Source: Micromonospora cathayae (GTDB taxonomy: Bacteria; Actinomycetota; Actinomycetes; Mycobacteriales; Micromonosporaceae). From it: a stretch of 64,000 nt of DNA. The position numbers were made by a program, and so were the translations under genes. The notes beneath the pieces are model-generated. The model saw only the letters and a list, made by a program, of their open reading frames with translations, was not told where the DNA came from and searched no databases. This document shows positions 4,267 through 63,026 of this stretch, one piece after another; position 1 is the first letter of the stretch; the number at the start of each line of letters is the position of its first letter. Where the stretch lies: the NCBI RefSeq assembly GCF_028993575.1, contig NZ_CP118615.1, positions 4,183,001 to 4,247,000 on the forward strand. The letters are read 5' to 3'.

Positions 4267-4291
4267 CGGCACCGGGCGGCCGGTCGACTGG

Positions 4292-5269: not shown

Positions 5270-5410
5270 GGTCAGCCCACTCTACGCGGGCGGTGGTGGC
5301 GGTGCCGCCGGGTCGCCGCAACTGCGGTGACCGGCGCGGATGGTGCCCGTCCGGCGACCGGCTGCGACAATGCGGGGCTCGTGCGCTGCCCAATCCGGGC
5401 TCCGGGGGGC

Positions 5411-5416
5411 TAATGT
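5411..5416 (+). promoter_or_regulatory. pafA -10 box, leaderless start
   Basis: TAATGT lies 6 nt before the pafA ATG at 5423, with no Shine-Dalgarno between. The expected transcription start falls on or next to the start codon, the usual layout of actinobacterial leaderless mRNAs. No good -35 is visible. Confidence 0.6.
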
Positions 5417-5422
5417 CTCATC

Positions 5423-6781
5423 ATGGAGCGGCGAATCTTCGGTATCGAGACCGAGTACGGCGTCACCTGCACGTACCGGGGGCAGCGGCGGCTCTCGCCC
5501 GACGAGGTCGCGCGTTACCTCTTCCGTCGGGTGGTGTCGTGGGGCCGGTCGAGCAACGTCTTCCTGCGCAACGGCGCCCGGCTCTACCTGGACGTGGGTT
5601 CGCACCCGGAGTACGCGACGCCGGAGTGCGACTCGGTGGTGGACCTGGTGGCGCACGACCGGGCCGGTGAGCGGATCCTGGAGGGTCTGCTGGTCGACGC
5701 GGAGAAGCGGCTGCACGACGAGGGCATCGCGGGCGAGATCTACCTGTTCAAGAACAACACCGACTCGGCGGGGAACTCGTACGGCTGCCACGAGAACTAC
5801 CTGGTCTCCCGGCACGGTGAGTTCGGGCGGCTGGCGGACGTGCTGATTCCGTTCCTGGTGACCCGGCAGTTGATCTGCGGGGCGGGGAAGGTGCTGCAGA
5901 CGCCGCGCGGCGCGGTGTACTGCCTCTCCCAGCGGGCCGAGCACATCTGGGAGGGGGTGTCGTCGGCGACCACCCGGAGCCGGCCGATCATCAACACCCG
6001 GGACGAGCCGCACGCCGACGCCGAGCGGTACCGCCGGCTGCACGTGATCGTCGGCGACTCCAACATGAACGAGGTCACCACCCTGCTCAAGGTGGGTTCG
6101 GCGGACATCGTGCTGCGGATGATCGAGGCCGGGGTGGTGATGCGGGACCTCACCCTGGAGAACCCGATCCGGGCCATCCGGGAGGTGTCGCACGACATCA
6201 CCGGCCGGCGGAAGGTGCGGTTGGCCTCCGGCAAGGAGGTCAGCGCGCTGGAGATCCAGCAGGAGTACCTCGCCAAGGCGACCGAGTTCGTGGAGCGGCG
6301 TGGCGGCGACCAGACCGCCAAGCGGGTGGTGGAGCTGTGGGGCCGGGTGCTGCGCGCGGTGGAGACCGGTGACCTGGAGCCGGTGGCCCGGGAGATCGAC
6401 TGGGTGACGAAGCTCCGGCTGATCGAGCGGTACCAGCGCAAGCATGACCTGCCGCTGTCGCATCCCCGGGTCGCCCAGATGGACCTGGCGTACCACGACC
6501 TGCGGCGCGGCCGGGGCCTGTACGCGCTGCTGGAGCGGCGTGGCCAGGTGGACCGGGTGACCACGGATCCGGAGATCTTCGAGGCGAAGGAGACGCCGCC
6601 GCAGACCACCCGGGCGCGGCTGCGCGGCGAGTTCATCCGGCACGCGCAGGAGAAGCGGCGCGACTTCACCGTCGACTGGGTGCACCTGAAGCTCAACGAC
6701 CAGGCGCAGCGCACCGTGCTGTGCAAGGACCCGTTCCGGGCGTACGACGAGCGGGTGGAGCGGCTGATCGCCAGCATGTGA
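5423..6781 (+). CDS. pafA: Pup-protein ligase PafA
   Basis: PafA uses ATP to phosphorylate the Pup C-terminal Glu and join it to substrate lysines. The 452-residue protein has the GIETEYGV nucleotide-binding signature (residues 7-14) and the catalytic Asp57 in [11 protein letters not shown]. It lacks the long insertion that marks Dop at 59-1576. The remaining blocks ([32 protein letters not shown]) are shared by both. It is divergent from rfbB and has its own leaderless-type promoter, so it is probably transcribed separately from dop-pup-prcBA. A strong hairpin follows the stop codon. Confidence 0.97.
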
Positions 6782-6787
6782 CCGTCG

Positions 6788-6825
6788 GGGCGTTCCGGCC
6801 GGCCCGGGGGTCGGCCGGAGCGCCC
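6788..6825 (+). terminator. Hairpin after pafA
   Basis: A 14-bp stem (6788-6801 with 6812-6825) with one G-T wobble and a 10-nt loop begins 6 bp after the pafA stop. There is no T-tract, as is frequent in high-GC actinobacteria. It probably ends pafA transcription before the next promoter (TAGGCT, 6829-6834). Confidence 0.6.
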
Positions 6826-6843
6826 GGGTAGGCTGGCCGGACC

Positions 6844-7023
6844 ATGGCCTATTCATCACCTCCCGATCCTGAGCGCCTGACCTGGGTCGAGCGTCGGCGC
6901 AACAAGATCCGTGACGAGATCGCGGCGAACCGCCGTGGCGAGTACACCGTGCCGACCTGGGTGTTGACGCTGGCGTTGCTGGCGATGGTCGGCGGCTGGG
7001 TGGCGCTGGTCTACTTCGCCTGA
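6844..7023 (+). CDS. Small single-pass membrane protein
   Basis: A 59-residue open frame starts ATGGCCTATTCA and ends TGA. The N-terminal half is charged (ERLTWVERRRNKIRDEI). One hydrophobic segment near the C-terminus (VLTLALLAMVGGWVALVYFA) would place the protein in the membrane with a cytoplasmic N-terminus. A TAGGCT -10 box lies 9 nt upstream. Third codon positions are G/C rich, as in neighbouring genes, which supports coding. It follows pafA on the same strand. I do not recognise a family and infer no function beyond membrane insertion. Confidence 0.65.
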   Translation: MAYSSPPDPERLTWVERRRNKIRDEIAANRRGEYTVPTWVLTLALLAMVGGWVALVYFA

Positions 7024-7137
7024 CGGTCGCCCGCCTGTGCGGGCCGCCCGGCCTCACCGCCGGTGAGTGGCCCGACGGCCGGGGGCGGCGGGGTCGTGCC
7101 GGACCGGCCGTCGTTCGGGCCCTACCCGGGGTGGCGG

Positions 7138-8223
7138 TCAGCCGGCGAGGCGGGCGGCGTGCCGGCCGGCTGCGGCGGCGGCCAGGAAGTACGCGTGGTC
7201 GGCGTCGAGGCCCCGTCCCATCGTCGACAGCGGCACCACGCTGGCGCGCAGCGCGGCGTCCAGTCCGTCGGTGTCGACCCGGACGATGCGGTGCCGGCCG
7301 GCCAGCGGCGCGGTCGCCGCGTCCACCTGCGCGGCCAGCTCCGGGTCGAGGCCGTCCGGGACGACCAGGTCCGCCGGGGCGAGCGCGACCCGCCCGTACG
7401 CGGTCAGGCTGTGGTGGGAGACGCCCTGGTGCCGGGGGCGGGGGTCGGCGGCGGAGATCCGCAGTGATCCGACCGGCCGGCCGCCGAGGGCGGCCACGGC
7501 GTTGACCGCCTCGCCGACCGCGACACCGGAGTAGCCCCACCGGGTGCCGGTGCCGAGGTTGCCGGGACCCTGGGCGACGATGGCGACGTCGGCGTGCAGC
7601 ACGTGCCGGGCGGCGAGCAGCCCGGTGTGCAGGGTGCTGGCCTCCAGGTCGCCGCCGAACGCCTGACCGACACTGATCGTGCCGACCAGGTGTCCGCGCA
7701 GTCCGGCCAGGGTGCGGGAGAACCAGGCGGGCAGGGCCCCGCCGTCGGTGAGCAGGTACGCGACCCGGCGGTCGGGGGCATCGGCGTGCACGCCGGCCAG
7801 GATCGCCGGCAGGGCCGAATGCAGGTCGGCGGTGACCACCGGCAGGCCGGCCAGGTCGTCGGCGTCGGCCAGCAGCGCGTGGTGCGGGGACGCCTCCTCG
7901 TCGACGCCGAGCAGGATGGGTTGCAGCGGGGTGTAGCGGGCCTTGACCAGGTGTCCCGCCGCGCGGGTGCCGGCGTCGGCCGGCGGGTCCGGTGGCAGTC
8001 GGTCGGGCAGGGCGACCACCAGGGCGTACCCGCCGGTGCCGAGGCCCATCAGCAGCGCGCCGGCGTTGAGCAGCACCCGGTCGCCGGGCTGCGGGTGGCC
8101 GACCAGTTCGGGGTAGGCCAGCGCGCGCATGCTGGCCCCGTCGGGCAGGGCGACGTCGAGTTCCGTCGCGCCGTGCCACTGCCGCCGCAGGGCGGTGACC
8201 GTTCCCGTCCGCCATCGCACCAT
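7138..8223 (-). CDS. DUF3866 family protein
   Basis: A 361-residue protein resembling the actinobacterial DUF3866 family, whose function is not known to me. It begins VRWRTGTVTALRRQW and has Gly-rich blocks (NAGALLMGLGTGGYALV, QGPGNLGTGTRWGYSG) and a conserved HQGVSHHS segment. There is no signal peptide or clear membrane segment. It lies downstream of the cation-efflux gene on the minus strand (70-bp gap) but has its own -10-like TAGCGT at 8232-8237, 8 nt before the ATG, so it may be independently and leaderlessly transcribed. It is convergent with the small membrane-protein gene. Confidence 0.75.
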   Translation of the reverse strand: MVRWRTGTVTALRRQWHGATELDVALPDGASMRALAYPELVGHPQPGDRVLLNAGALLMGLGTGGYALVVALPDRLPPDPPADAGTRAAGHLVKARYTPLQPILLGVDEEASPHHALLADADDLAGLPVVTADLHSALPAILAGVHADAPDRRVAYLLTDGGALPAWFSRTLAGLRGHLVGTISVGQAFGGDLEASTLHTGLLAARHVLHADVAIVAQGPGNLGTGTRWGYSGVAVGEAVNAVAALGGRPVGSLRISAADPRPRHQGVSHHSLTAYGRVALAPADLVVPDGLDPELAAQVDAATAPLAGRHRIVRVDTDGLDAALRASVVPLSTMGRGLDADHAYFLAAAAAGRHAARLAG

Positions 8224-8293
8224 GACCGGAAACGCTATCGGGCGTCGCCGGTGTGCCTCGCGTCCGGGTCGGCTGCGGGGGTGTCGCCGCTGG

Positions 8294-9310
8294 TCACGGT
8301 GGCGGTGGCGTCCGGTCGGGGTCCGGTGGTGGCGGTGGTGGCTGGTCGGGGTCCTGGATGTGCCGGGCGTGGCCGGTCACCCCGGGCAGCGACCGGGTCG
8401 GGTCGAGGAAGACGTACCGGATCTCCGGGTACCGGCCGGTGAGCCGGCGTTCGGCCTCGTCGGCGGCGGCCTCGATGTCGGCGCCGGTCGCGTCGTCGGC
8501 GAAGTCGACCTTGGCGGCGACCAGGATGTCGTCCGGGCCGAGCTGCATGGTGAGCAGGGTGTCGATCCGGTGCACGGTGGGCAGGCCGACGAGTTCGTGT
8601 TCGATCTCGTGGCGCATCCGCTTCGGTACGGCCCGGCCGACCAGCAGCGAGGTGTTGCTGTGCGCGAGGATGCCGGCGACCACCAGCAGCAGGACGCCGA
8701 TCAGGATCGAGGCGACGCCGTCGTACAGTTCGTCGCCGGTCAGCTCGGACAGGCCGACGCCGAGGGCGGCCAGGAGCAGGCCGATCAGGGCGGCGCTGTC
8801 CTCGAGGAAGACCGCTTTGACGGTGGTGTCGGCGGTCATCCGCAGGAACCGGTGCGGGGTGGTGCGCCAGCGGCGGGACTCGCGGCGCACCTGACGTACC
8901 GCCCGCGCCAGGGACACCGACTCGATGGCGAAGGAGATCGCCAGCACCACGTACGAGACCAGGTAGTTGCCGCTGTGCTCGTGGACGAGGATGGTGGTGA
9001 CGCCGTGGGTGATGGCGAAGCCGGCCCCGGCGACGAAGGTGAACAGGGCGGCGAGGAACGCCCAGACGTAGCTCTCCTTGCCGTACCCGAAGGGGTGCCG
9101 GGGGTCGGCGGGCCGGGCGCCCCGGCGCAGCGCGGCGTAGAGCAGCACCTCGGTGGTGGTGTCGGCGACCGAGTGGGCGGCCTCGGAGAGCATCGCCGCA
9201 GACCCGGACAGCAGGCCGGCGATCAGTTTGGCGACGGCGATGGCGAGGTTGGCGGCCCCGGCGACGACGACCGTGCCGACGCTCTCCGTCCGGGGTGCCG
9301 TCTGGGCCAT
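8294..9310 (-). CDS. Cation diffusion facilitator family transporter
   Basis: A 338-residue integral membrane protein of the cation diffusion facilitator (CDF) family, which exchanges divalent metals such as Zn2+ for protons. Hydrophobic segments fill the N-terminal two thirds. The metal-site motif SEAAHSVADTTTE supplies the HxxxD pair; the second pair sits in FLEDSAALIGLLL, where an ED-SAA arrangement resembles the SLC30A9-like subgroup rather than classical CzcD. A cytoplasmic C-terminal domain (residues 230-310) is followed by a Pro/Asp-rich tail. TAGGGT at 9317-9322 lies 6 nt before the ATG, indicating a leaderless transcript. The metal cannot be told from sequence. Confidence 0.88.
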   Translation of the reverse strand: MAQTAPRTESVGTVVVAGAANLAIAVAKLIAGLLSGSAAMLSEAAHSVADTTTEVLLYAALRRGARPADPRHPFGYGKESYVWAFLAALFTFVAGAGFAITHGVTTILVHEHSGNYLVSYVVLAISFAIESVSLARAVRQVRRESRRWRTTPHRFLRMTADTTVKAVFLEDSAALIGLLLAALGVGLSELTGDELYDGVASILIGVLLLVVAGILAHSNTSLLVGRAVPKRMRHEIEHELVGLPTVHRIDTLLTMQLGPDDILVAAKVDFADDATGADIEAAADEAERRLTGRYPEIRYVFLDPTRSLPGVTGHARHIQDPDQPPPPPPDPDRTPPPP

Positions 9311-9424
9311 GGGCTCACCCTACGGTCGGCGGTCGTGGTTCGCGGTCGGAGCGGGACGGCCGGCCGGTGACCTGCGGCGGGGCGGCACGTCCGCGTGGGT
9401 GCGTGCCCGCCGCGGTGGGGCTGC

Positions 9425-9430
9425 TAGCGT
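9425..9430 (+). promoter_or_regulatory. pafB -10 box, leaderless start
   Basis: TAGCGT ends at 9430. An ATG at 9432 is too close to be transcribed from this box, whereas the in-frame GTG at 9438 lies 7 nt after it, matching other leaderless starts in the window. This box decides the pafB start used here. Confidence 0.55.
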
Positions 9431-9437
9431 CATGCAC

Positions 9438-10436
9438 GTGTCGCGGACCCGCACCGAACGCCTGGTCAACCTGGTGATCTGCCTGCTCTCCACGCGACGG
9501 TTCCTGACCGCCGCGCAGATCGCCGCGACCGTGCCGGGCTACGAGCACGATCCGGAGGACGTCCGTGACCACGAGGCGTTCCAGCGCAAGTTCGAGCGGG
9601 ACAAGGCCGAGTTGCGGGAGCTGGGGGTGCCGTTGGAGACCGGCACGGCCAGTGTCTTCGACACCGAGCCGGGGTACCGGATCGCGCCCCGGGAGTACGC
9701 GTTGCCCGACATTCCGTTGGAGCCGGACGAGGCCGCCGCGGTGGGCATCGCCGCGCGGCTCTGGCAGCACGCCGGGCTGGCCGCCGCCGCCTCGTCGGGG
9801 CTGGCGAAGCTGCGGGCCGCCGGGGTGGACGTGGACCCGCAGGCCACCCTCGGGTTGGAGCCGATGGTCACCGTCGACCCGGCGTTCGCGCCGCTGACCG
9901 CCGCCGCCCGGGACCGCCGCGTGGTCACCTTCGACTACCGCACCCGGGACGGTGACGCGCCGGCCGCCCGCCGGCTCCAGCCGTGGGGGGTGGTCTGCTG
10001 GCGGGGCCGGTGGTACGTGGTCGGTCACGACCTGGACCGGTCCGCCACCCGCTGTTTCCGGCTGTCCCGGGTGGTGGGCGCGGTCCGGGTGACCGGGCGT
10101 CCCGGCGCGTACACCCCGCCGGAGGGGGTCGACCTGATGAGTCACGTGGCCCGGTTCTCCGGGCCGGTGGAGCGGACCGGCCGGGCCACCGTGCTGGTCG
10201 TTCCCGGTCGGGCCGCCGGGCTGCGCCGGTGGGCGGTGGGCAGCACCAGCGGCCCGGACGGGGACCGGCTGGTGCTGCCGTACGCCGACCCGGAGTCGCT
10301 GGCCGGCCAACTGGTCGGGTACGGCCCGGACGTGCGGGTGCTGGACCCGCCGGAGGTGCGGGACGCGGTCATCCAGCGGTTGAAGGAGATCGCGGCCCGG
10401 CACGACGAGGTCGCGTTGAGCGGAGGTGCCCGGTGA
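9438..10436 (+). CDS. pafB: WYL-domain transcriptional regulator PafB
   Basis: PafB forms, with PafC, the heteromeric WYL-domain activator of the LexA-independent mycobacterial DNA-damage response; the names come from the proteasome accessory factor locus. From the GTG at 9438 the protein has 332 residues: an N-terminal winged helix (RTERLVNLVICLLSTRRFLTA), then a WYL domain with WGVVCWRGRWYVVGHD and a FRLSRVVG strand, and a C-terminal WCX-like extension. An in-frame ATG at 9432 would add two residues but overlaps the promoter context. It overlaps pafC by 4 nt (GTGA), so the two are translationally coupled. Confidence 0.92.
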   Translation: MSRTRTERLVNLVICLLSTRRFLTAAQIAATVPGYEHDPEDVRDHEAFQRKFERDKAELRELGVPLETGTASVFDTEPGYRIAPREYALPDIPLEPDEAAAVGIAARLWQHAGLAAAASSGLAKLRAAGVDVDPQATLGLEPMVTVDPAFAPLTAAARDRRVVTFDYRTRDGDAPAARRLQPWGVVCWRGRWYVVGHDLDRSATRCFRLSRVVGAVRVTGRPGAYTPPEGVDLMSHVARFSGPVERTGRATVLVVPGRAAGLRRWAVGSTSGPDGDRLVLPYADPESLAGQLVGYGPDVRVLDPPEVRDAVIQRLKEIAARHDEVALSGGAR

Positions 10437-11443
10437 CCCGTACCGCCACCCGGCCGGCGGGGTCGCGCGCCTCGGCCGACCGGCTCGCCCGGCTGCTGAA
10501 CCTGGTGCCGTACCTGCTGGCCCGGCCGGGCATCGAGATCGCCGAGGCGGCGGGGGACCTCGGGGTCAGCGAGCGGCAGCTGCGGGAGGACCTGGAGCTG
10601 TTGTGGGTGTGCGGGCTGCCCGGTTACGGCCCGGGTGACCTGATCGACATGGCGTTCGACGGGGACCGGGTCACCATCACCTACGACGCCGGCATCGACC
10701 GGCCGCTGCGGTTGACGCCGGACGAGGCGTTGGCGCTGGTGGTGGCGTTGCGGATGCTGGTGGAGACGCCGGGCGTGGCGAACCGGGAAGCGGTCGAGCG
10801 GGCCCTCGCCAAGATCGAGAACGCGGCGGGTGACCTGGTCGGCGCGCCGGTGGCGGTGCAGCTCGCCGGGGACACCGAGCGGGCGGAGACGTTGCGCGCG
10901 ACGGTGGAGCGGGGCCGGGCGTTGCGGATCACCTACTACACGGCGGCGCGGGACGAGACCACCGAACGCACCATCGACCCGCTGCGGATGCTGTCGGTGG
11001 GTGGCCGGGCGTACGTGGAGGCGTGGTGCCGCCGCGCCGAGGCGGTACGGATGTTCCGCGCGGACCGGATCGACGCGGTCACCGAGCTGGACGAGCCGGC
11101 GGTGGTGCCGCCGCAGGCCCGCGCGCACGACCTGACCGGCGGGGTGTTCCGTCCCGCGCCGGACCTGCCGCTGATCACCCTGCGGATCGGGCGCGGGGAG
11201 CGGTGGATCACCGAGTACTACCCGTGTGAGCGGGTCGAGGCGGGGGAGGGGGACCGGTGGCTGGTGTCGCTGCGGGTCACCGACCTGGGCTGGGCCCGTC
11301 GTTTCGTGCTGGGCCTCGGGCCGGAGGTGACCGTGGTCGCCCCGGCCGAGCTGGCCGAGCAGGTCCGCGCCCAGGCGGTCGCCGCCCTGGACGCGTACGC
11401 GTCGCCGGCCCCCGCGTCGCCGGAGCCGGCCCCGGCCCCGTAG
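10433..11443 (+). CDS. pafC: WYL-domain transcriptional regulator PafC
   Basis: Partner of PafB; 336 residues from the GTG that overlaps the pafB stop. An N-terminal helix-turn-helix (LARLLNLVPYLLARPGIEIAEAA...LGVSERQLREDLELLW) is followed by a WYL domain (RTIDPLRMLSVGGRAYVEAWC, FRADRI) and a WCX-like C-terminal domain. WYL domains are known to sense nucleic acids; in mycobacteria PafBC is reported to respond to single-stranded DNA. A longer frame upstream is antisense-like filler within pafB and is not used. The C-terminus is Ala/Pro rich. Confidence 0.92.
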   Translation: MTRTATRPAGSRASADRLARLLNLVPYLLARPGIEIAEAAGDLGVSERQLREDLELLWVCGLPGYGPGDLIDMAFDGDRVTITYDAGIDRPLRLTPDEALALVVALRMLVETPGVANREAVERALAKIENAAGDLVGAPVAVQLAGDTERAETLRATVERGRALRITYYTAARDETTERTIDPLRMLSVGGRAYVEAWCRRAEAVRMFRADRIDAVTELDEPAVVPPQARAHDLTGGVFRPAPDLPLITLRIGRGERWITEYYPCERVEAGEGDRWLVSLRVTDLGWARRFVLGLGPEVTVVAPAELAEQVRAQAVAALDAYASPAPASPEPAPAP

Positions 11444-51908: not shown

Positions 51909-53012
51909 GTGGAGATCACCGCGCGGGAGGCGCTCGCCTGGCGGATGGCGGGCCTGCTGCTCCGCCCCGGGGACGGCCCCCGCCCCGGTGACGTCGCCGG
52001 GGTGGTCGAGTGGTTCGGCGCGATGCAGGCCCAGGACGTCGCCAGCGGCCTCTGGTCGCTGGGTGTACGGCTGCCCGGCGCGACGGCCGACGACGTGCGG
52101 GAGGCGCTGGAGCGGCGCGAGGCGCTGCGGACCTGGCCGATGCGCGGCACGGTGCACCTGGTGCCGTCGCGGGACGCGCACTGGATGCTGGCGACGCTGG
52201 GGGAGCGGGCGCTGGCCGGGGCGGCCCGCCGCCGGGCGGTGCTCGGTCTGGAGGAGGCGACCGCCGACCGGGCGGTGGACGTGCTCGGCGCGGCGCTGGC
52301 CGGGGGCGGCCGGTTCACCCGGGACCAGTGCCGGCAGGCGCTCACCGCGGCCGGCGTCGACTGCACCGGCCAGCGCCTGTACCACCTGCTCTGGTACGCC
52401 AGCCAGCGCGGCGTGCTGTGCATCGCCCCGCACGTCGGCACCGAGCAGACGTTCGTGCTGCTGGACGAGTGGGTGCCCGACCCGCACCGGCCCGACCGGG
52501 AGGAGGCCCTGGGCATCATCGCGCTGCGGTACTTCCGTAGCCACGGCCCCACCACCCGGCAGGACTTCGCCGGTTGGACCGGGCTGACCGCCGCCGACGC
52601 CCGCCGGGGCATCGCGGTGGCCGGCGACGCGCTCGGCACGGTACGCGTCGACGGGGTGGACATGATCGTGTCGACGGCTCGTCGGGAGGCCGGGCCGCTG
52701 CCGCCGGTCGACGACTGGTGGACCCTGCCCGGCTTCGACGAGTACCTGCTCGGCTTCAAGGACCGTGCGCTGATGGTCGACCCGGCGCACCTGTCGGCGA
52801 TCATCCCCGGCGGGAACGGGGTGTTCCAGGCGACGGTGGTGCGGGGCGGGCGGGTGGTCGGCACCTGGAAGCGCACCGTCGGACGGAAGCAGACCACGGT
52901 CCGGGTCACCCCGCTGGTGGCTCTCGGGGCCGCCGAGCGGTCGCGGACCGAGCAGGCGTTCGGACCGTACGGGGCGTTCGTCGGGCAGCCGCTGCGCGTC
53001 GACTGGGCGTGA
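51909..53012 (+). CDS. Winged-helix DNA-binding protein, AlkZ/YcaQ-like
   Basis: A 367-residue protein resembling the HTH_42 / AlkZ superfamily of winged-helix DNA glycosylases. The early VEWFGAMQAQDVASGLWSL carries a QxQ(D) motif like the catalytic Gln pair of AlkZ/YcaQ enzymes that unhook interstrand crosslinks or excise alkylated bases. Later blocks are MRGTVHLVPSRDAHWML, GIIALRYFRSHGPTTRQDFAGW and LPGFDEYLLGFKDR. GAGGAGG precedes the GTG start. AlkZ homologues often give self-resistance beside genotoxin clusters; this one is 581 bp upstream of a polyketide cluster, but whether they are linked is unknown. Confidence 0.75.
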   Translation: MEITAREALAWRMAGLLLRPGDGPRPGDVAGVVEWFGAMQAQDVASGLWSLGVRLPGATADDVREALERREALRTWPMRGTVHLVPSRDAHWMLATLGERALAGAARRRAVLGLEEATADRAVDVLGAALAGGGRFTRDQCRQALTAAGVDCTGQRLYHLLWYASQRGVLCIAPHVGTEQTFVLLDEWVPDPHRPDREEALGIIALRYFRSHGPTTRQDFAGWTGLTAADARRGIAVAGDALGTVRVDGVDMIVSTARREAGPLPPVDDWWTLPGFDEYLLGFKDRALMVDPAHLSAIIPGGNGVFQATVVRGGRVVGTWKRTVGRKQTTVRVTPLVALGAAERSRTEQAFGPYGAFVGQPLRVDWA

Positions 53013-53593: not shown

Positions 53594-54709
53594 ATGACGC
53601 GTACCCTGTTACTGTTCGACGGTCTCGGTGGGCGGGTCGACACCCTGCTGCCCATGCTCGGCGAGCTGTACCGCAGGCCCGACAATCACCTCTACTTCCA
53701 CCAGGTCTGCACCGTTCTGGACGCCGTGACGGCGTACGTCGGCGACGAGGCCCGCACCGTACTGCCACCCGGTGGGCTCGCGTTGCGGACCTGGCTGGAA
53801 TCTCCGCTGGCACCGGAGACCCTGACCAACTCCGTCGTCGCCGGTGTCTGCGTACACGTGCTCCAGGTCTGTCACCTGCAACCCACCCGCGACCTGGTGG
53901 GTGACCAGGTGGTCGCGGCGCTGGGCCACAGCATCGGCCTGCAGGCGGCACTCGTCGCCGGCCTACGGCTGCGCCGGATGGACCGGTTCCTCGAGGTGGC
54001 GGCGGCTGCCCTGCGGCTGGTCGCGCTCAGCCTCGTCCGGGGCCACCAGGCGACCGACGGCACCACCGTCGGGCCCGAGCAGGCCGGCCGGTACCTGGCG
54101 CGGGACCGCCGGGGCGCGCCACCCGGGCCGATGGCCACCGTGACCGGCCTGCACCGGGACGACCTGACCGCCCTGCTGCGCCGCCACCAGGACACCGGCG
54201 GCCGGTCGCTGTCACTGTCGCTGGTCAACGCGCCCACCGCCCAGGTGCTCAGCGGCACCCCCGCCGAACTGCTCGACTTCTACTTCGCCCACCAGGACCA
54301 CTTCGCCCGGTCCGGGGTGGACTGGGCGTTCCTGCCGAACACCATCCCCTTCCACAGCGACCACCTGCTCCCGGCCGTCCGGCGGGTACGGCAGGACCTC
54401 GGGTTCGTCGGTCCGCTGCCCGGACCGGAGCAGCTCGTCCTGCCGGTGTACGCCACCGACACCCCCCGCAACCTGCAACACGCCACCGACCTGACCGACG
54501 AGTACCTGCACCAGGTACTCGTCCGGCCGGTCGAGTGGGAACGCGCCACCGCGTACGCGATCCGGGACGCCCGGGTGCAGCGGGTCGTGGACTGCGGACC
54601 GGGACCGGGCGCCCGCCGGTACGTCCGCGAGTGCCTGACCACCGGCGCGCGCAACCTGCGCTTCGAACCGGTCCACCGGTCGGCGCGACGTCGAGAGGAG
54701 AACACCTGA
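53594..54709 (+). CDS. FAS-I/SAT-type acyltransferase, stand-alone
   Basis: A 371-residue acyltransferase. The nucleophile is Ser113 in ALGHSIGLQAALVAG; the catalytic His is in IPFHSDHLLPA. The order of blocks LRTWLESP, GHSxG, PMATVTGLHRDDL, LSLSLVNAPTAQVLSGTP and PFHSDHLLPA follows the acyltransferase domain of type I fatty acid synthase and the starter-unit transacylase (SAT) of fungal polyketide synthases rather than FabD. As a free protein beside an AT-less synthase, it probably loads a starter or extender acyl group onto the carrier protein (inference). It is first in the operon, and its stop overlaps the next ATG (TGATG). Confidence 0.78.
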   Translation: MTRTLLLFDGLGGRVDTLLPMLGELYRRPDNHLYFHQVCTVLDAVTAYVGDEARTVLPPGGLALRTWLESPLAPETLTNSVVAGVCVHVLQVCHLQPTRDLVGDQVVAALGHSIGLQAALVAGLRLRRMDRFLEVAAAALRLVALSLVRGHQATDGTTVGPEQAGRYLARDRRGAPPGPMATVTGLHRDDLTALLRRHQDTGGRSLSLSLVNAPTAQVLSGTPAELLDFYFAHQDHFARSGVDWAFLPNTIPFHSDHLLPAVRRVRQDLGFVGPLPGPEQLVLPVYATDTPRNLQHATDLTDEYLHQVLVRPVEWERATAYAIRDARVQRVVDCGPGPGARRYVRECLTTGARNLRFEPVHRSARRREENT

Positions 54710-55551
54710 TGCACTGCCTACTCTTCCCCGGCCAGGGTGTGCAGCGCCGCGGCATGGGCGCGGAGCTGTTCGCCCGGTACCCGGAGCAGACCGCCCTCGC
54801 CGACGCGGTCCTCGGCTACTCGATCGAGGAACTGTGCGTCCGCGACCCGCACCGCCGCCTGCGCGACACCCGGTACGCCCAACCGGCGGTCTTCTTCGTC
54901 AACGCGCTGCTCGGGGCGGACCGGCTGGCCGAGTTCCCGGACCGCTACCGGTACCTGGCCGGGCACAGCCTGGGCGAGTACAACGCCCTGCACGCCGCCG
55001 GGGTGCTGGACCTGGCCGACGCGCTGCGACTGGTGCGCCGCCGGGCCGAACTGATGGCCGAGGTGACCGGCGGCGGCATGTCCGCGGTGCAGGGGGTGCC
55101 GGAGGCGTTCGTCCGGCGGGCGATCACCGAGACCGGCCTGGGCCGGGTGTACGTCGCCAACCTCAACGCCGACACCCAGACCACCATCGCCGGTGACCGT
55201 ACCGAGGTCGCCGTCGCCGGCAAGGCCATCGCCGTCCTGCCCGGGGCCCGGGTGGTGCCGATCAACGTCAGCGGCCCGTTCCACACCCCGCTGATGGCCC
55301 CCGCCGAGCGGGAGTTCCGCGCCGTGCTCGCCGACCAGACGTTCGCCCCGGCCGGCACGCCGGTGGTCTCCAGCGTCACCGGGGAGCTGTTCGACGTCGA
55401 CCGGGCGGCGGACCTGCTGGCCCGGCAACTGTCCGCGCCCGTCGAGTGGGTCCGCGCCGTCGGCACCCTGCGGGCCGCCGGCGTCACCGGCTTCGACGAG
55501 GTCAACGGGCAGACCCTGAGCGCCCTCGTGAACCGCATCGCACAGAGGTGA
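54709..55551 (+). CDS. FabD-type trans-acting malonyl-CoA:ACP acyltransferase
   Basis: A 280-residue acyltransferase of the FabD/trans-AT type (PksE/BryP AT-like). CLLFPGQGVQRRGMG is the N-terminal oxyanion block, Ser87 lies in AGHSLGEYNALHAAG, the catalytic His is in SGPFHTPLM, and the C-terminal ELLARQL...PVEWVRAV is conserved. The usual carboxylate-binding Arg is likely in RLVRRRAELM, consistent with malonyl specificity. It should supply malonyl units to the KS-KR-ACP protein encoded 9 bp downstream. GAGAGGAG precedes the ATG. Confidence 0.88.
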   Translation: MHCLLFPGQGVQRRGMGAELFARYPEQTALADAVLGYSIEELCVRDPHRRLRDTRYAQPAVFFVNALLGADRLAEFPDRYRYLAGHSLGEYNALHAAGVLDLADALRLVRRRAELMAEVTGGGMSAVQGVPEAFVRRAITETGLGRVYVANLNADTQTTIAGDRTEVAVAGKAIAVLPGARVVPINVSGPFHTPLMAPAEREFRAVLADQTFAPAGTPVVSSVTGELFDVDRAADLLARQLSAPVEWVRAVGTLRAAGVTGFDEVNGQTLSALVNRIAQR

Positions 55552-55559
55552 GGAACCCC

Positions 55560-58500
55560 ATGAACACGGACATCGCCGTCGTCGGTCTCTCGGTGGAGGT
55601 TCCCGGCGCCCGGGACCTGGACGCCTTCTGGCAGATCGTCGCCTCCGGCACCAGCCTGACCCGGCCCTTCCCGACCGACCGCCGCAGCAAGCTCGCCGAG
55701 TACATCCGCTACCTGCGCGCGGTCAGCGTCGACCCGGTGGAGGACACCGACCTGGAGTACCACAACGGGTCCTTCCTGGACACCGTGGACACCTTTGACT
55801 ACGCCGCCTTCGGGATGAACCCGCGCCAGGCCACCCTGACCGACCCGCACCACCGGATGGTGCTGCGGGCGATGTTCCTGGCCTTCGAGGACGCCGGCTA
55901 CTCCCGGGACCGGCTGCGGGGGAGCCGTACCGGGGTGTTCGTCGGGTTCGCGGTCAACCCCGGCTCCACGTACCTGGACTACATCTCCCGAATCGATCCG
56001 AGCGTCGGCCAGCAGGCCCTCACCGGCAACATCCCGACCATGCTGGCGAACCGGCTGTCGCACTTCCTGGACCTGCGCGGGCCGAGCCTGGTCGTCGACA
56101 CCGCCTGCTCGGCGACCCTGGTCGCGGTGCACCAGGCCAAGAACGCGCTGCTGGCCGGGGACTGCGAGATGGCGGTGGTCGGCGGGGCCCGGATCGTGTT
56201 CGCGCCGGTGAAGCACCCGCACAGCAACATCGGCATCGAGTCGTCCGACGGGGTCACCCGCACCTTCGACGAGGCCGCCGACGGCACCGGCTTCGGCGAG
56301 GGCTCCGGCGCGGTCGTGCTCAAGCGGCTGGACCGGGCGCAGGCCGACGGCGACCAGATCTACGCCGTCATCAAGGGCAGCGCGGTCAACCACGACGGCA
56401 ACACCGAGGGCATCACCAACCCGGACTCCGACTCGCAGGCCGAACTGCTCCGTACCGCCTGGCGCAACGCCGGGGTGGACCCGCGCAGCATCGGCTACCT
56501 GGAGGCGCACGGCACCGCCACCCGGGTCGGCGACCCGATCGAGCACGAGGGCATGAAGCGGGCCTTCGCCACGTACACCGCCGACCGGGGGTTCTGCGCG
56601 GTCGGCACGGTCAAGGCCAACGTCGGGCACCTCTTCGAGGGCTCCGGGGTGATCGGGCTGATCAAGGCGATCGCCGTGCTGCGGCAGCGGGCCATCCCGC
56701 CGCAGGCCAACTTCCACACCCCCAACCCCAGCCTCGACTTCGCCTCCGGTCCGCTGTACGTGTCGACCAGCCTGCGGCCCTGGGAGTCGCCGGACGGCCC
56801 GCGCCGGGCCGGGGTGAGCGCGTTCGGCCTGGGCGGCACCAACGCCCACGTGGTGCTCCAGGAGTACGTCGAGCCGGCGGCCGACCGGCCCGCCGACGAC
56901 GGTGGCCCGCACCTGTTCACGCTCAGCGCCGCCACCATCCGGTCGCTGACCGCGCTGGCCGACCGGTACGTGCGGTTCCTCGACGAACCCGCCGGCCGGG
57001 ACCTGCCCATCGCCGACATCTGCCACACCAGCCGGATCTCCCGCAGCTCGCACCGGCACCGGCTCGCCCTGGTCGTCACCGACCACGACGACCTGCGGCA
57101 CCAGCTCGTCGACGCGCTGGCCGACCGGCTGCCGGCGCTGCCGGACACCCCGCTCGCCGACCACGCCCGGGAGTACCTGCGCGGTGCCCCCGTCGACTGG
57201 CGGGCGTTGGCCGGCCCGGTCCCGCCCCGGGTGGTCCGGCTGCCCGGGTACGTCTTCGACGAGAGCCTGGCCTGGGTGGAGTTCCCCGACACCTGGCGGG
57301 ACCAGCTCTCCCTCGGTGCCGCCGAGGAGCGCCACCCGGTGACCCACGACGTGGAGTTCCAGCCCGCCCCGGCCCCCGCCGAGCTGGCCGCCACCGCGAC
57401 CGTGCTGGCCCTGGTCGACCCGGACACCGACGCGGAGGCCCTGCTCACCGCCGCCGGCCCGGGTGACCTACGGGTGCTGCGGCTGGGCGCGCCGGTCGAA
57501 CCGGACGGTCCGGTGTTCACCGCCGGTGACCCGGCCGGGTACGAGCGGATCGCCCGGCTGGTCGCCGACGGCGGCGTCACCCACCTGGTGCACGCGCTGG
57601 CCTTCGAGGCGGAACCGGCCACCGACATCCACGAGATCGACCGCCGCGTCGACAAGAACCTGCACAGCCTGTTCCGGCTCTCCCAGGCGCTGATGGCGGC
57701 CGGCGTCAAGGTCGACCTGACCGTGCTGACCCGCACCGCGGTCCCCGCCGCCGAGGGCGACCACCCGGCGGTCACCGAGAACGCCGCCCTGGTCGGCTTC
57801 GGCAAGGTGATCGGCCGGGAGTACCCGTACATCCGGGTCCGGCACCTGGACGTGGACCCGACGGTGCCACCGGCGGCGGTCCGCGCGGAACTGCTCTCCG
57901 GCGAGTACGGCCTGTTCCTGCTGCGCGGTGGGCAGCGGCTGCGGGAGGTGTTCGTGGAGGTCCCGGAGGTCGCCGCCGACGGGCCGCAGACCTACCTGAA
58001 GCCCGGCGGCACCTACCTGGTCACCGGTGGTACCGGCGCGCTCGGCCTGGCGGTGGCCCGGTTCTTCGCCGAACGCGAACCGAAGATCAACCTGGTGCTG
58101 CTGAGCCGTTCCGGTCTGCCGGCCCGGGACGAGTGGGACGACCTGCTCGCCACCTCCGCCGACAGCGCGGTGGCCGGTCGGGTGCGGGCGGTCCGCGAGA
58201 TCGAGGAGCTGGGCGCGACGGTGCAGGTCACCCCGGCCGACGCCGGTGACCCGGCGGCGCTGACCGCCGCGGTGACCGCGATCCAACGCGACCACGGCCG
58301 GATCGACGGCATCGTGCACGCCGCCGGCCTCCCCGGTGGCAGCACCCTGATGTTCCGGCAGCTCGACGACTTCGACGCGGTGGTACGGGTGAAGCTGCAC
58401 GCGGCGTTCCTGCTCGACCAGCTCACCCGGGCCGACCGGCCCGACTTCGTCGTGCACTTCTCCTCGGTGGCGTCGGTCTTCCCGGCCCCCGGCCAGGCCG

Positions 58501-59156
58501 ACTACGCGGCCGGCAACTACTACCTGGACGCGGTCGCCCGCGCCCAGGCCGGTCGGGACACCCACGTGGTCGCCCTGGACTGGGTGGCCTGGAAGGAGAT
58601 CGGCATGGCCGTCGACCACGGCACCGCCGGCGACACCATGTTCAAGGCGCTGCCGACCCGTACCGGTCTGGAGGTGATGGACGCGGCGCTGCGGTCGCGG
58701 CGGTCCCGGCTGTTCGGCGGTGAACTGCACTACCGGGGTGAGCTGATCCACCTGCTGCGCTCGTACGACGTGCCGCTGTCGGCCGACATCGAGACCAAGG
58801 TGGAACGGGAGATGCGGGCGCTGGACGAGCGGCTGCGCAGGGCGTCGGAGAAGATCCGGGCCAACGTGGCGGCCGTCGACGTGGAGCTGGTCGGCCGGGC
58901 CGACGGCGGGTACACCGAGGTCGAACAGTCGGTGGGCCGGTGCCTGGCGCTCGCCTTCGGTTTCCCCGAACTCGACGTCGAGGCCGACTTCTTCGACCTC
59001 GGCGGCGACTCCATCATGGCCGCCTCGGTGGCCAGCACCATCGCGGTCTGCCACGACGTGCAGTACGACGTCGCGGACCTGCTCGCCGACCGGACCATCG
59101 CCGAGATCGCGTACCACATCGAGGACCTCGTCGAGTTCGCCGACCGCGAGTCGTGA
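55560..59156 (+). CDS. Type I polyketide synthase KS-KR-ACP, AT-less
   Basis: A 1198-residue single module. The ketosynthase (about 1-440) is complete: Cys183 in VDTACSA, His317 in EAHGTAT and His357 in NVGHLFEG. Next comes a linker (about 450-600) like the remnant/docking region after the KS of trans-AT synthases, ending in RLPGYVFDE. A ketoreductase with structural subdomain (about 610-1060) has GGTGALG at 823-829, HFSSVAS and Tyr982 in DYAAGN, so it should be active. The carrier domain ends the protein, with phosphopantetheine Ser1151 in LGGDSIMAAS. There is no AT, DH, ER or thioesterase, so acyl groups must come from the two free acyltransferases upstream. A beta-hydroxyacyl-ACP is the expected product. 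Confidence 0.9.
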   Translation: MNTDIAVVGLSVEVPGARDLDAFWQIVASGTSLTRPFPTDRRSKLAEYIRYLRAVSVDPVEDTDLEYHNGSFLDTVDTFDYAAFGMNPRQATLTDPHHRMVLRAMFLAFEDAGYSRDRLRGSRTGVFVGFAVNPGSTYLDYISRIDPSVGQQALTGNIPTMLANRLSHFLDLRGPSLVVDTACSATLVAVHQAKNALLAGDCEMAVVGGARIVFAPVKHPHSNIGIESSDGVTRTFDEAADGTGFGEGSGAVVLKRLDRAQADGDQIYAVIKGSAVNHDGNTEGITNPDSDSQAELLRTAWRNAGVDPRSIGYLEAHGTATRVGDPIEHEGMKRAFATYTADRGFCAVGTVKANVGHLFEGSGVIGLIKAIAVLRQRAIPPQANFHTPNPSLDFASGPLYVSTSLRPWESPDGPRRAGVSAFGLGGTNAHVVLQEYVEPAADRPADDGGPHLFTLSAATIRSLTALADRYVRFLDEPAGRDLPIADICHTSRISRSSHRHRLALVVTDHDDLRHQLVDALADRLPALPDTPLADHAREYLRGAPVDWRALAGPVPPRVVRLPGYVFDESLAWVEFPDTWRDQLSLGAAEERHPVTHDVEFQPAPAPAELAATATVLALVDPDTDAEALLTAAGPGDLRVLRLGAPVEPDGPVFTAGDPAGYERIARLVADGGVTHLVHALAFEAEPATDIHEIDRRVDKNLHSLFRLSQALMAAGVKVDLTVLTRTAVPAAEGDHPAVTENAALVGFGKVIGREYPYIRVRHLDVDPTVPPAAVRAELLSGEYGLFLLRGGQRLREVFVEVPEVAADGPQTYLKPGGTYLVTGGTGALGLAVARFFAEREPKINLVLLSRSGLPARDEWDDLLATSADSAVAGRVRAVREIEELGATVQVTPADAGDPAALTAAVTAIQRDHGRIDGIVHAAGLPGGSTLMFRQLDDFDAVVRVKLHAAFLLDQLTRADRPDFVVHFSSVASVFPAPGQADYAAGNYYLDAVARAQAGRDTHVVALDWVAWKEIGMAVDHGTAGDTMFKALPTRTGLEVMDAALRSRRSRLFGGELHYRGELIHLLRSYDVPLSADIETKVEREMRALDERLRRASEKIRANVAAVDVELVGRADGGYTEVEQSVGRCLALAFGFPELDVEADFFDLGGDSIMAASVASTIAVCHDVQYDVADLLADRTIAEIAYHIEDLVEFADRES

Positions 59157-59163
59157 GCCCCCG

Positions 59164-60501
59164 ATGACGGACATGACCAGCGGGCCGGCGGTACGGCGCA
59201 TCGTCGGCTTCGCGCTGCCGCTCACCGCGGCCAACCTGCTCCAGCAGGGCTACCTGCTGGTCGACAGCATCGTCGTCGGCCGGTACGTCGGGGTGGAGGG
59301 GCTGGCCGTGGTGGGTGCCACCGGCCCGCTGTTCTACCTGCTGAACGCGATGTTCATCGGGCTGGGCACCGCGTTCACCATCCGGCTGGCGCACCTGCGC
59401 GGCGCCGGACAGCATGAGGACCGGCGGGCCGTCGTCCGCGCGCTGGCCCTCACCACGGTGGTCTGGTCGGTCGGCTGTGTCGCCCTGGCGACCGTGCTGG
59501 CCGGCCCGGCCCTGGCGCTGATGGGCATCCACGGCGACCTGGCGGCCGACGCGCAACGGTTCTTCGCGATGCTCTCCCTCGGCTTCCCGGGCATCTTCGG
59601 CTCCGCGGCGGTCAGCGCCTACTTCCGGGGCCTCGGCGACTCCCGGGCGGCCATGTGGGTGCAGGGCTTCGGCAGCGTGGTCAACGTGGTGCTGGTCTGG
59701 ATCCTGGTGGCGGTGCTCGACGCCGGGGTTTCCGGGGCGGCGCTGGCCACCGCGGCGGCGAGCACCCTGGCGCTGGTCGTCGGGCTCGCCCACGCGGCCC
59801 GCGTCCACCCGGTCACCGGCGGCCGGTCCACCCCGGCCGTCCGCCGGGAACTGACCGACGCGGTACGCCTCGGACTGCCGCTGGCCAGCCAGCACATCAT
59901 CCTCGCGGTGGGCATCATGGCGCTGGTCTGGGTGATCCAGCGCTACGGCGAGACGGTGATGGCGGCGTTCACGGTGGTGTCCCGGATCGAACTGTTCACC
60001 GGCATGCTGTTCCTGGACCTCTCCGGCGCGGTGACCGCGTTCGTGGCGCAGAACCTCGGCCACGGCGACCGGTCGCGGGCCCGGTACGGGCTGGTCCGCA
60101 CCCTCGGCCTGACCGTCGGGTTGTCCGTCCTGGTCGGGGCGGCGGTGATGCTGGCCCGGTCACCGATCGCCGCGCTGTTCACCGAGGACCCGGCCGCCCG
60201 CGCGCTCACCGAGCGGTACATCCTGATCATCTACCCGTTCCTGGCGCTGTACACGGTGATGGTGGTGGTGCACGGCTACCTCAACGGCGCGCGCCGGACC
60301 ACCGCCCCGCTGATCTGCACGGTCATCGCGTTCGTGCTGGTGCAGATCCCGGTCGCCTACCTGTTCCACGGCCCGTTCGGCATCGACGCCGTGATGTGGG
60401 CCCAGGTGGCCGGCTGGTCGGCCGGACTGGCGTACTCCCTGTTCTGTCTGCGGGACGTGTTGTTCTCCCGCCCCGCGCCGGCACTCGCCCCGGCGCGCTG
60501 A
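59164..60501 (+). CDS. MATE-family efflux transporter
   Basis: A 445-residue, 12-helix transporter of the multidrug and toxic compound extrusion family, usually Na+ or H+ driven. It begins IVGFALPLTAANLLQQGYLLVDSIVVGRYVG, the typical first two helices, and carries FGSAAVSAYFRGLGDSRAAM and the matching repeat in the second half. It starts 7 bp after the synthase stop and is followed 25 bp later by the condensation-domain gene, so it very likely exports the cluster's product. Confidence 0.9.
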   Translation: MTDMTSGPAVRRIVGFALPLTAANLLQQGYLLVDSIVVGRYVGVEGLAVVGATGPLFYLLNAMFIGLGTAFTIRLAHLRGAGQHEDRRAVVRALALTTVVWSVGCVALATVLAGPALALMGIHGDLAADAQRFFAMLSLGFPGIFGSAAVSAYFRGLGDSRAAMWVQGFGSVVNVVLVWILVAVLDAGVSGAALATAAASTLALVVGLAHAARVHPVTGGRSTPAVRRELTDAVRLGLPLASQHIILAVGIMALVWVIQRYGETVMAAFTVVSRIELFTGMLFLDLSGAVTAFVAQNLGHGDRSRARYGLVRTLGLTVGLSVLVGAAVMLARSPIAALFTEDPAARALTERYILIIYPFLALYTVMVVVHGYLNGARRTTAPLICTVIAFVLVQIPVAYLFHGPFGIDAVMWAQVAGWSAGLAYSLFCLRDVLFSRPAPALAPAR

Positions 60502-60526
60502 CCGTGCTCCCGAGAGGCGACCACGC

Positions 60527-61993
60527 ATGATCACCGAGAGCAGTGCCGAGTTCGAGTTCCACGGTGGCCGGGCCCGCAGCGCCCCCCTCGCGTGGGGACA
60601 GCAGGGCACCTGGGACGTCATCCGGCACTGGTACCCGGAGACCAAGCCGTTCTTCGTGCTCACCCGCTGGCTGCCGGTGCCGCTGCTGCTCGAACTGGGT
60701 GACGTGCTGGAGGAGTTGGCCGAGCTGATGCGCCGGCACGAGGCGCTGCGCACCCTGTACCACGCCAGCGAGCGCGGCGAGGTCACCCAGGAGGTGCTGC
60801 CCGGCGGGGTGGTCACCGTGGACCTGTACGACCGCCCCGCCGACGACCCGGTGAGCTTCACCGACATCGTCACCACCTGCGTCGAACGGGGCACCGCCAC
60901 CGGGTTCGACCACGAGCGGGAGGTGCCGATCCGGTTCGCCGTCGCGCTGCACGAGGGCATCCCGGTGCTGGTGGTGTTCGCGGTGTCCCACCTGTCGGCG
61001 GACTACCTCAGCGCCGACCTGCTCGCGGCGGAACTCAACGCCCTGCTGCGGGCCCGGGTGGACCGGGTCCCCGCCCCGCCGGCCCGGCCCGCCGCGCAGC
61101 CGGTGGACCTGGCCACCTTCGAACGGTCCCCGCAGGGCCAACTGCTCAACGTGGAGGCGATGCGCCACCTGCGGCAGCACCTCGACCGGATCACCCCCGG
61201 CCTGCTGCCGGCGCGGGCCACCCCGGTGACACCCCGGTTCCACCGGGGCGAACTGGAGTCCGACGCCATGCCGGTGGCGTTGCGGGCGGCGGCCCGCCGG
61301 CACCGCACCACCACGTCGGTCCTGCTGCTGGCGGTCAGTATGGCGCTGCTGGGCCGGTTCTGCCCCGGGCCGGTCCTGCCGCTGGACATCATGCAGAGCA
61401 ACCGGTCCACGCCGGAGCTGTTCCACACCGTGTCCAGCCTGAACCAGGCCGTCCGGACCGCCGTGGACCTGCCCGCCGTGACCTTCGCCGACCTGGTGGA
61501 GCGGGCGGCGCGGGTGATGGCGCAGGCCCGCGCGTACGCCCGGTACGACGGTCGGGCCGCCCAGCAGGTGATCGCCACGGCGGCCCGGTCGAGGGGCACC
61601 GACTTCGAACCGGGCTGCCAGTTCAACGACATGTGGTCCACGCTGCCCCGGCCGGCGGGCCGACCGGTCACGGACCCGGCGGAACTGGACCGGCTCGCCG
61701 CCGCGACGACGTTCGGCTGGCCGCAGACGGCCGACGCCGAGGGGATGGTGGTCTTCCTGGACGTCCGGGGCACGGCGGAACGGCTCCAGTTGTCGCTGAT
61801 GGCCGACACCGCGCTGCTGCCGCCCGACGACATCCGGGCGGTGCTGTTCGCCTTCGAGCGGGTCGCCATCGCCCTGGCGACCGGGGAGGTCACCCTCGCC
61901 GGGATGCACGCGATCCTCGACGGGTGCCGCACCGACCCTGCCGGACCGGGGGACCCGGCCCGCGCCGTCAGCGGGTCACCGACGACCCGCTGA
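60527..61993 (+). CDS. Stand-alone condensation-domain protein
   Basis: A 488-residue protein with the fold of NRPS condensation domains. The early PLAWGQQGTWDVI resembles the C1 motif (SxAQxR/LW), and the active-site motif HHxxxDG appears as SHLSADY: the second, catalytic His is kept (His155) and the Asp is kept, while the first His is Ser and the Gly is Tyr. C4/C5-like blocks (TTSVLLLAVSMALLGRFC, GCQFNDMW) follow. With no NRPS module nearby it probably transfers the acyl chain from the synthase ACP to a free amine or alcohol, giving an amide or ester and releasing the product (inference). It ends the operon; GAGAGG precedes the ATG. Confidence 0.8.
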   Translation: MITESSAEFEFHGGRARSAPLAWGQQGTWDVIRHWYPETKPFFVLTRWLPVPLLLELGDVLEELAELMRRHEALRTLYHASERGEVTQEVLPGGVVTVDLYDRPADDPVSFTDIVTTCVERGTATGFDHEREVPIRFAVALHEGIPVLVVFAVSHLSADYLSADLLAAELNALLRARVDRVPAPPARPAAQPVDLATFERSPQGQLLNVEAMRHLRQHLDRITPGLLPARATPVTPRFHRGELESDAMPVALRAAARRHRTTTSVLLLAVSMALLGRFCPGPVLPLDIMQSNRSTPELFHTVSSLNQAVRTAVDLPAVTFADLVERAARVMAQARAYARYDGRAAQQVIATAARSRGTDFEPGCQFNDMWSTLPRPAGRPVTDPAELDRLAAATTFGWPQTADAEGMVVFLDVRGTAERLQLSLMADTALLPPDDIRAVLFAFERVAIALATGEVTLAGMHAILDGCRTDPAGPGDPARAVSGSPTTR

Positions 61994-62058: not shown

Positions 62059-62253
62059 TCAGTGCGACGAGCGGATCGACCGGGTGAAGGAAGCCCAGCT
62101 TCCGGAGATGAAGGTGAGGGCCGGACCAGCCGGGTCCTTGCTGTCGCGTACGGCGACGATGTCAGGGAGGTTGGTCGCGACCTCGACGCAGTCACCCCCG
62201 TTGCTGCCGCTGCGGGTGCTCTTGCGCCACTTGGCATCGCTGAGATCAACCAC
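62059..62253 (-). CDS. DUF397-domain protein
   Basis: A 64-residue protein with the DUF397 signature (AKWRKSTRSGSNGGDCVEVA, then IVAVRDSKDPAGPALTF). GTG 62253 has GGAGG 7 nt upstream and overlaps the broken HTH gene by 8 nt. In actinomycetes DUF397 proteins are encoded just after Scr1-type HTH/DUF5753 regulators and act with them in development or antibiotic control. Here the partner gene is frameshifted, so this gene may be an orphan. It is convergent with the end of the polyketide operon. Confidence 0.8.
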   Translation of the reverse strand: MVDLSDAKWRKSTRSGSNGGDCVEVATNLPDIVAVRDSKDPAGPALTFISGSWASFTRSIRSSH

Positions 62254-63026
62254 GGTGGACCTCCACATGGATCTTGCTGATCAGGTGCCTTGATTGTGTC
62301 TCATCGAGTGCCAGCTCATCGAGGCTCGTCCATGCCTTTTCATGGGCTGCGTACTCTTCCGGCCGGTCCAGGTAGAGGGCCCCCGTCCACGACTCGCAGT
62401 AGACCACCGATGGCTCCGGAGTGGTCCGCTTGTCGAGAGGGAAGTCGAGGATGACGAAGGTGCCCGCCTCCACACCCCGATGGAGGCCGGCTGGCAACGG
62501 GAGCACCCGCACGGAAACGTTGGGTAGCTCCCCGACATCCAGCAGGTGGCGAAGCTGATCAACCATGATGGCCGCGCTGCCTACCGTGCGGAGCAACGCT
62601 GCCTCGGCCAAGATCACTTCGAGCTTGGGCGGCGGCGGCAGCCTGCGGCGGAGAAGGGTCTGCCGTTGCAGGCGCACCTCGACCAGCCGCTCCCGCTCTC
62701 CCTCCGTCACCTCCTGCCGGTGCTGGTAGACCGCGAAGGCGTACGCGCGCGAGGTAGGAGTGCCACCAGCCGCTGGCCTTGGTCTGGGCGGCGAGGTTGG
62801 TCAGGGCGTCGGAGAGTTCGCGGGTGGCCCCGTACAACTCGCAGATGAAGCGGACGTCGACCGGGCGGACCGGACCGAGGCCGCTCTCGATGCGCCACAT
62901 CTTCTGCCGGCTGCACCGCAGGGCTTCGGCCGCGGCGTCCAGGGTGATCTGGGCTTCGATGCGCAGGTCCTTGAGGGCGCGCCCGAGTTGTCGTCGGGGG
63001 ACGGTGGATCCGGGGTCCTCGGCCAT
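62246..63026 (-). pseudogene. Frameshifted Scr1-type HTH/DUF5753 regulator
   Basis: The first part (from ATG 63026) encodes an XRE-type HTH (RRQLGRALKDLRIEAQITLD, CSRQKMWRIESG) and the following KASGWWHSY segment. From about 62755 the reading continues in another frame with AFAVYQHRQEV, then ERLVEVRLQRQTLL and the rest of a DUF5753-type ligand domain down to the stop at 62246. Between these, roughly 40 residues usual for the family (the segment up to LLQTEAYA) are missing. A deletion that also shifted the frame explains this best. The two fragments are unlikely to make a working regulator, though a sequencing error cannot be excluded. Confidence 0.7.

Follow-up and report, generated by a model that had tools for sequence, protein, structure and literature searches.

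A recurrent five-gene cassette around an acyltransferase-less polyketide module in Micromonospora cathayae and related actinobacteria

Can a polyketide system with a single module be complete? The question is raised by a locus of Micromonospora cathayae, in a stretch of 64,000 nucleotides (contig NZ_CP118615.1, positions 4,183,001 to 4,247,000) that is here called the window. Its positions 53594 to 61993 hold five plus-strand open reading frames (ORFs). These encode two acyltransferases (AT1 and AT2), a polyketide synthase (PKS) with ketosynthase (KS), ketoreductase (KR) and acyl carrier protein (ACP) domains, a MATE exporter and a condensation protein (C). On balance it seems probable that they form a complete small cassette, which would carry out one extension and a reduction, transfer the product to a small acceptor by means of C, and export it.

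An earlier, sequence-only reading had described five genes in the same direction with gaps of at most 25 bp, and the ORF coordinates bear this out: AT1 and AT2 overlap by one base, and the gaps AT2-PKS, PKS-MATE and MATE-C are 8, 7 and 25 bases. Its AT-less KS-KR-ACP module, exporter and stand-alone condensation protein are also there, as Pfam gives KS, KR and ACP but no acyltransferase domain in the third gene, MatE in the fourth and Condensation in the fifth. The two acyltransferases it listed are indeed both discrete, but they differ in kind: AT1 belongs with the acetyl-transferases of fungal fatty acid synthase (FAS) and lacks the malonate arginine. A scan of the cassette for promoters and terminators stayed at chance level (0 observed against 0.2 expected, and 3 against 1.9), so it is the gene spacing that supports an operon structure.

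The sequence-only reading had not recognised the layout. It is that of a recurrent family, not peculiar to this strain. The five genes occur in identical order at 18 of the 21 distinct loci examined, which rules out chance; these 18 are in Micromonosporaceae and Pseudonocardiaceae. This count includes the window, every locus was found via a match to AT1, and L012 and L054 are one locus, counted once. The order is present in at least six named genomes (Umezawaea, Saccharothrix, three Actinokineospora and Micromonospora humi) and in twelve stretches of relatives (L045-L056); at L057-L059 no C follows MATE. Identity to the window at the other 17 loci is 45-80% for AT1, 69-91% for AT2, 69-92% for PKS, 67-90% for MATE and 50-84% for C. 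The closest named homologues of AT1 and PKS are from Micromonospora.

The family is patchily distributed. AT1 is matched at E < 1e-60 in 17 of 354 family genomes, 16 of which were examined (the window's and 15 others, all but G230), and the next best match is at 2e-7. Many weak matches sit in very long open frames, like the AT domains of other synthases. In a class-wide sample, AT1 is found at E <= 1e-25 in 3 of 394 genomes. The class-wide PKS search scored two candidates per genome, and did not report G550 though the cassette is present there. Plasmid records held no close match: C matched two records with 30% covered, and the 1284 PKS matches were all below 60% identity among the matches listed.

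Does the cassette stand alone? Genes were clustered over 23 pieces of DNA (21 loci, the window, and its 10 kb downstream), and the five families came out in 18 to 22 pieces each. The gene caller missed some members (it gave AT1 in 18, C in 19, AT2 in 20, MATE in 21 and PKS in 22 pieces), which is why gene counts rest on tblastn. The next commonest family looks helix-turn-helix-like by eye and reaches 6 pieces, which come from 4 genomes; no other is found in more than 3. Most other shared flank families are local synteny of near relatives (L012/L055, L049/L051/L052, window/L045), and a few are general ones, such as an AlkZ-like gene. Since beyond the five no family is widely common to the flanks, the cassette looks complete and self-contained, and the larger pathway that the sequence-only reading had named as a way to be wrong shows no sign.

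This bears on one alternative, in which C joins the polyketide to a nonribosomal peptide synthetase (NRPS) product from elsewhere in the genome, so that the cassette is an arm of a larger assembly. Free C domains can work between assembly lines, and the genome, a single 7.2 Mb contig with 36 KS family matches (a count that takes in partial and weak matches as well as those of the window), has three further C-domain gene matches. But 6 of the 23 pieces is the most that any family beyond the five reaches, and the cassette occupies unrelated sites. A larger assembly is very improbable, although an NRPS might still adjoin a single locus, as flank genes were not annotated singly.

The synthase itself is well conserved. 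The active-site residues of KS, KR and ACP are invariant at 22 of 22 loci. The acyltransferase family PF00698 was not found in the window PKS, its G[HY]SxG motif is absent from all 22 PKS proteins, and PF00698 occurs in 1 of the best 120 of 6550 PKS relatives. When PDB sequences are ranked by similarity to the KS, the best 13 take in 7zma, PksL, PksJ and chains labelled AT-less, and the first recognised cis-AT sequence, PikA1, comes 14th. 7zma is not a very close relative, as its score is the sum of two KS domains (310 + 345 bits).

The Pfam domains of the PKS include no dehydratase (DH) and no enoylreductase (ER). In the KR, the LDD motif is missing directly after HAAG. Under the LDD rule, absence of the motif points to an L-configured alcohol, so that the beta-hydroxy product might, on this slight hint, be L-configured. 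That the module acts several times before C releases a polyhydroxy chain is unlikely, though not negligibly so. The KS-KR-ACP architecture is compatible with iteration, and PMC10308959 describes iteration as the general rule for type I synthases with a single module; against this, DH and ER are lacking and there are just five small genes.

AT2 is predicted to be a discrete malonyl AT of the trans-AT type, judging by its nearest solved relatives: DisD (8e-58), PksC (2e-57) and PksE (5e-57), with E. coli FabD at 5e-41. The arginine of the RGELM motif of DisD, which we take to be the malonate-binding residue, is retained in AT2 as RAELM.

AT1 is different. Its structure model has the AT fold, with the FAS acetyl-transferase domain a nearer match than FabD, and its profile matches FAS at 3e-26, against 7e-6 to 2e-4 for DisD, PksC and PksE. 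The Ser-His catalytic pair is kept, and the malonate-binding arginine absent, in all 57 aligned AT1 proteins. An invariant Arg149 aligns with an arginine (R309 in yeast) that is conserved among the FAS AT sequences shown. As this lies three residues past I306, Arg149 is not taken as the malonate arginine. The window's AT1 has three partial NCBIfam matches, all far under cut-off. Among its relatives, the Pfam SAT family (PF16073, cut-off 22.8) scores 33.4 in L059 and 21.5 in L066, and 16 of 54 listed homologues carry a precomputed SAT annotation. A second malonyl or extender AT is ruled out by the fold and the missing malonate arginine. Being of the fungal-FAS acetyl-transferase type without that arginine, AT1 most likely supplies the starter.

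AT1 could alternatively be an editing acyl hydrolase, with the starter reaching the KS otherwise. Pairs of an AT and an acyl hydrolase occur in large trans-AT clusters, where tandem ATs are common; the missing malonate arginine would suit this, as would two loci, L079 and L080, that manage without AT1. We think it quite unlikely, however, since AT1 groups with the fungal FAS acetyl-transferase by fold and by profile, and a synthase with one module has little to edit.

The structure model of C (pLDDT 90) has matches in NRPS C domains, in SgcC5 and in the release C domain of enacyloxin, and H155 and D159 are each kept in 54 of 54 proteins, the window's copy included. Another gene, X, opens the cassette in two Micromonosporaceae loci (L058 and L059) and in L066, from another family; there the genes run X-AT1-AT2-PKS-MATE, and no C was found. 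Altogether, X adjoins the acyltransferases in ten more distant cassettes for which the search gave no C gene. This exchange supports what had been proposed from sequence, namely that C is the likely transfer or release step.

X has about 346 residues; among the aligned members, identity to the L058 copy is 35-51%, and Cys26, Cys60, His142 and Asp160 are invariant in 12 of 12. It occurs in 12 of 394 genomes of the family of G550 (E <= 1e-10), whose own locus is L066. At the other 11 X loci it adjoins AT2 and PKS in 9, of which 7 have AT1 (L072-L078) and 6 show MATE; the stretches of L076-L078 end inside the PKS gene. L082 has a weak X-like match and no cassette. In L081 (G801:C120:20300-38200, 3985-10907) X is split by an insert of about 6 kb with a 720-aa ORF, serine recombinase-like by eye. 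AT1 follows the split X, and AT2, PKS and MATE were not found within the stretch.

Genes beside the X-type cassettes were noted as well. The gene directly 3' of MATE is common to L066 and L072-L075. The copies of L066 and L072 were scanned, and both are group 1 glycosyltransferases; the product there may be glycosylated. A gene family adjoins X in L076-L078, and its two scanned members, from L076 and L078, are LacI-type regulators. In L079 (11031-12611) and L080 (5287-6867) a carboxyl transferase gene adjoins MATE (PF01039, scanned in L079), and this perhaps supplies an unusual extender to these AT1-less cassettes.

A tree built from 40 PKS proteins puts all 18 C-type loci together (100/100), and the 12 X loci need 5 changes; midpoint rooting and long branches limit how far the tree can be read. 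The grouping fits a single recruitment of C among these loci. Against this, L057 may be a second case, with AT1-AT2-PKS-MATE and a divergent C-like gene, 28% identical, on the opposite side of AT1. The PKS reference P0140, which adjoins the C-type group, may also accompany a C homologue (P0100, 39% identical).

Over the 18 C-type loci, median pairwise identity is 0.74 for AT2, 0.72 for PKS and 0.71 for MATE, and 0.51 and 0.50 for C and AT1, the presumed acceptor and starter determinants. Pairwise distances are correlated across the five proteins (Spearman 0.70-0.93), which thus mostly travel as a set. The faster change of AT1 and C fits a varying starter and acceptor, but may simply be relaxed constraint.

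From gene content and order, conservation, intact active sites, the fold classes of the ATs, co-occurrence and the C-replaced loci, we infer each catalytic step, the single round and the nature of the acceptor. AT1 would take a non-dicarboxylic acyl starter from acyl-CoA and load it onto the synthase, and AT2 would load malonyl onto the ACP. The KS would then condense the two, and the KR reduce the beta-keto group. C would take the beta-hydroxyacyl group off the ACP and pass it to a small acceptor from general metabolism, an amine or an alcohol, and MATE would export the resulting amide or ester. More tentatively, there may be a whole family of autonomous acyl-transfer cassettes. Malonyl trans-AT, KS-KR-ACP and MATE would be their constant core, in most cases with a free fungal-FAS-type starter transferase, and one of at least two exchangeable, unrelated transferases (C or X) would place a beta-hydroxyacyl group on a primary-metabolism acceptor.

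Several observations weigh against this picture. The acceptor is not indicated by any sequence feature, and a KS-KR module without DH could still iterate. The window's AT1 matches nothing in Pfam at E <= 0.001, SAT included. At L079 and L080, X, AT2, PKS and MATE occur without AT1; not every cassette, then, needs a starter transferase of its own. Because L076-L078 stop within the PKS, a C gene could lie further on. Similarity of X to BtrH_N is seen in 2 of 12 members, at best E 0.0063, below the Pfam cut-off. Finally, the flanks of the C-type loci were clustered, not annotated gene by gene.

Table 1 Features of the cassette, in window positions
Feature	Position	Strand	Evidence and remarks
AT1, starter-type acyltransferase (fungal FAS AT-like), 371 aa	53594..54709	+	Fold model; motif GHSIG
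AT1 catalytic Ser113	53930-53932	+	
AT1 Ser146, occupying the malonate-binding Arg position	54029-54031	+	
AT1 catalytic His254	54353-54355	+	
AT2, discrete malonyl-type trans-acyltransferase, 280 aa	54709..55551	+	Acyl_transf_1
AT-less KS-KR-ACP PKS, 1198 aa	55560..59156	+	Pfam; 1202 aa if read from an alternative GTG start at 55548
KS domain (ketoacyl-synt N + C); C183, H317, H357	55566..56714	+	PF00109 4e-61; PF02801 2e-37
KR domain; Ser968/Ser969, Tyr982, Asn986	58008..58598	+	PF08659 1e-43
ACP domain; phosphopantetheine Ser1151 (LGGDS)	58938..59117	+	PF00550 5e-10
MATE family exporter, 445 aa	59164..60501	+	PF01554 2e-52; TIGR00797 214.5 bits (cut-off 147.4)
Free-standing condensation-domain protein (C), 488 aa	60527..61993	+	PF00668 5e-11; motif S-H155-xxx-D159

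The surroundings of the cassette offer some further observations. Directly upstream of AT1, and in its orientation, the window (51909-53012, PF06224) and L047 (12934-14163) carry an AlkZ-like gene, which is absent from this position in L045, a near relative of the window. Downstream there are small genes, by eye DUF397-like and helix-turn-helix, at 62059-62710 of the window and 5904-6794 of L060. Three other genomes (L012/L054, L045, L055) have relatives of the helix-turn-helix gene close to their cassettes.

No characterised relative or product of the five-gene layout was found in the literature, as far as titles, abstract openings and passages of PMC10308959 and PMC9962454 go. In the genome of Kribbella sp. 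CA-293567, one AT1 homologue (P0022) and two C homologues (P0061, P0072) are listed, perhaps a double or rearranged cassette. The available text of PMC9962454 describes region 14 of this genome as TransAT-PKS, NRPS and Type I PKS, with kanamycin at 1% as best MIBiG match, and has TransAT in no other place. Region 14, to which that text assigns no product, likely contains this cassette family.

With five proteins, this would be a very small complete trans-AT system, amenable to rebuilding in vitro. Its bacterial trans-AT module is combined with a free-standing starter transferase of fungal FAS type. The natural exchange of the presumed release enzymes around a conserved module is a model for swapping starters and acceptors, and the family points to unexplored metabolites in several actinobacterial families.

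How does the cassette compare with known systems? It shares the AT-less KS module with the trans-AT synthases of bacillaene (PksC/PksL/PksJ) and disorazole (DisD), and its discrete malonyl AT (AT2) has its closest relatives in DisD and PksC/PksE. It differs in having one module, no thioesterase, another class of starter AT and a free C protein. Unlike the fungal FAS acetyl-transferase domain, AT1 is a free-standing bacterial protein in a trans-AT PKS cassette, 21-23% identical to the fungal sequences. The SAT domain of CazM (4rpm) is, by Z score, no closer to AT1 than FabD is.

For X, a possible functional analogue is BtrH of butirosin, described in the parts available as an ACP:aminoglycoside acyltransferase (PMC10318531) that acts together with BtrG (PMC8430323). 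The likeness is under the Pfam threshold, and X, which occupies cassettes missing C, is not itself in the window. The C protein resembles SgcC5 (4znm) and the C domain of enacyloxin (6cgo), a release enzyme by its PDB title: in all of them the C fold carries HxxxD and stands outside an NRPS module. The cassette differs in having no NRPS or enediyne partner. With the usual size of docking domains and the usual first C motif, the roughly 20 residues before that motif in C (strands 3-12 and 17-20) leave no room for an N-terminal docking domain of the enacyloxin type.
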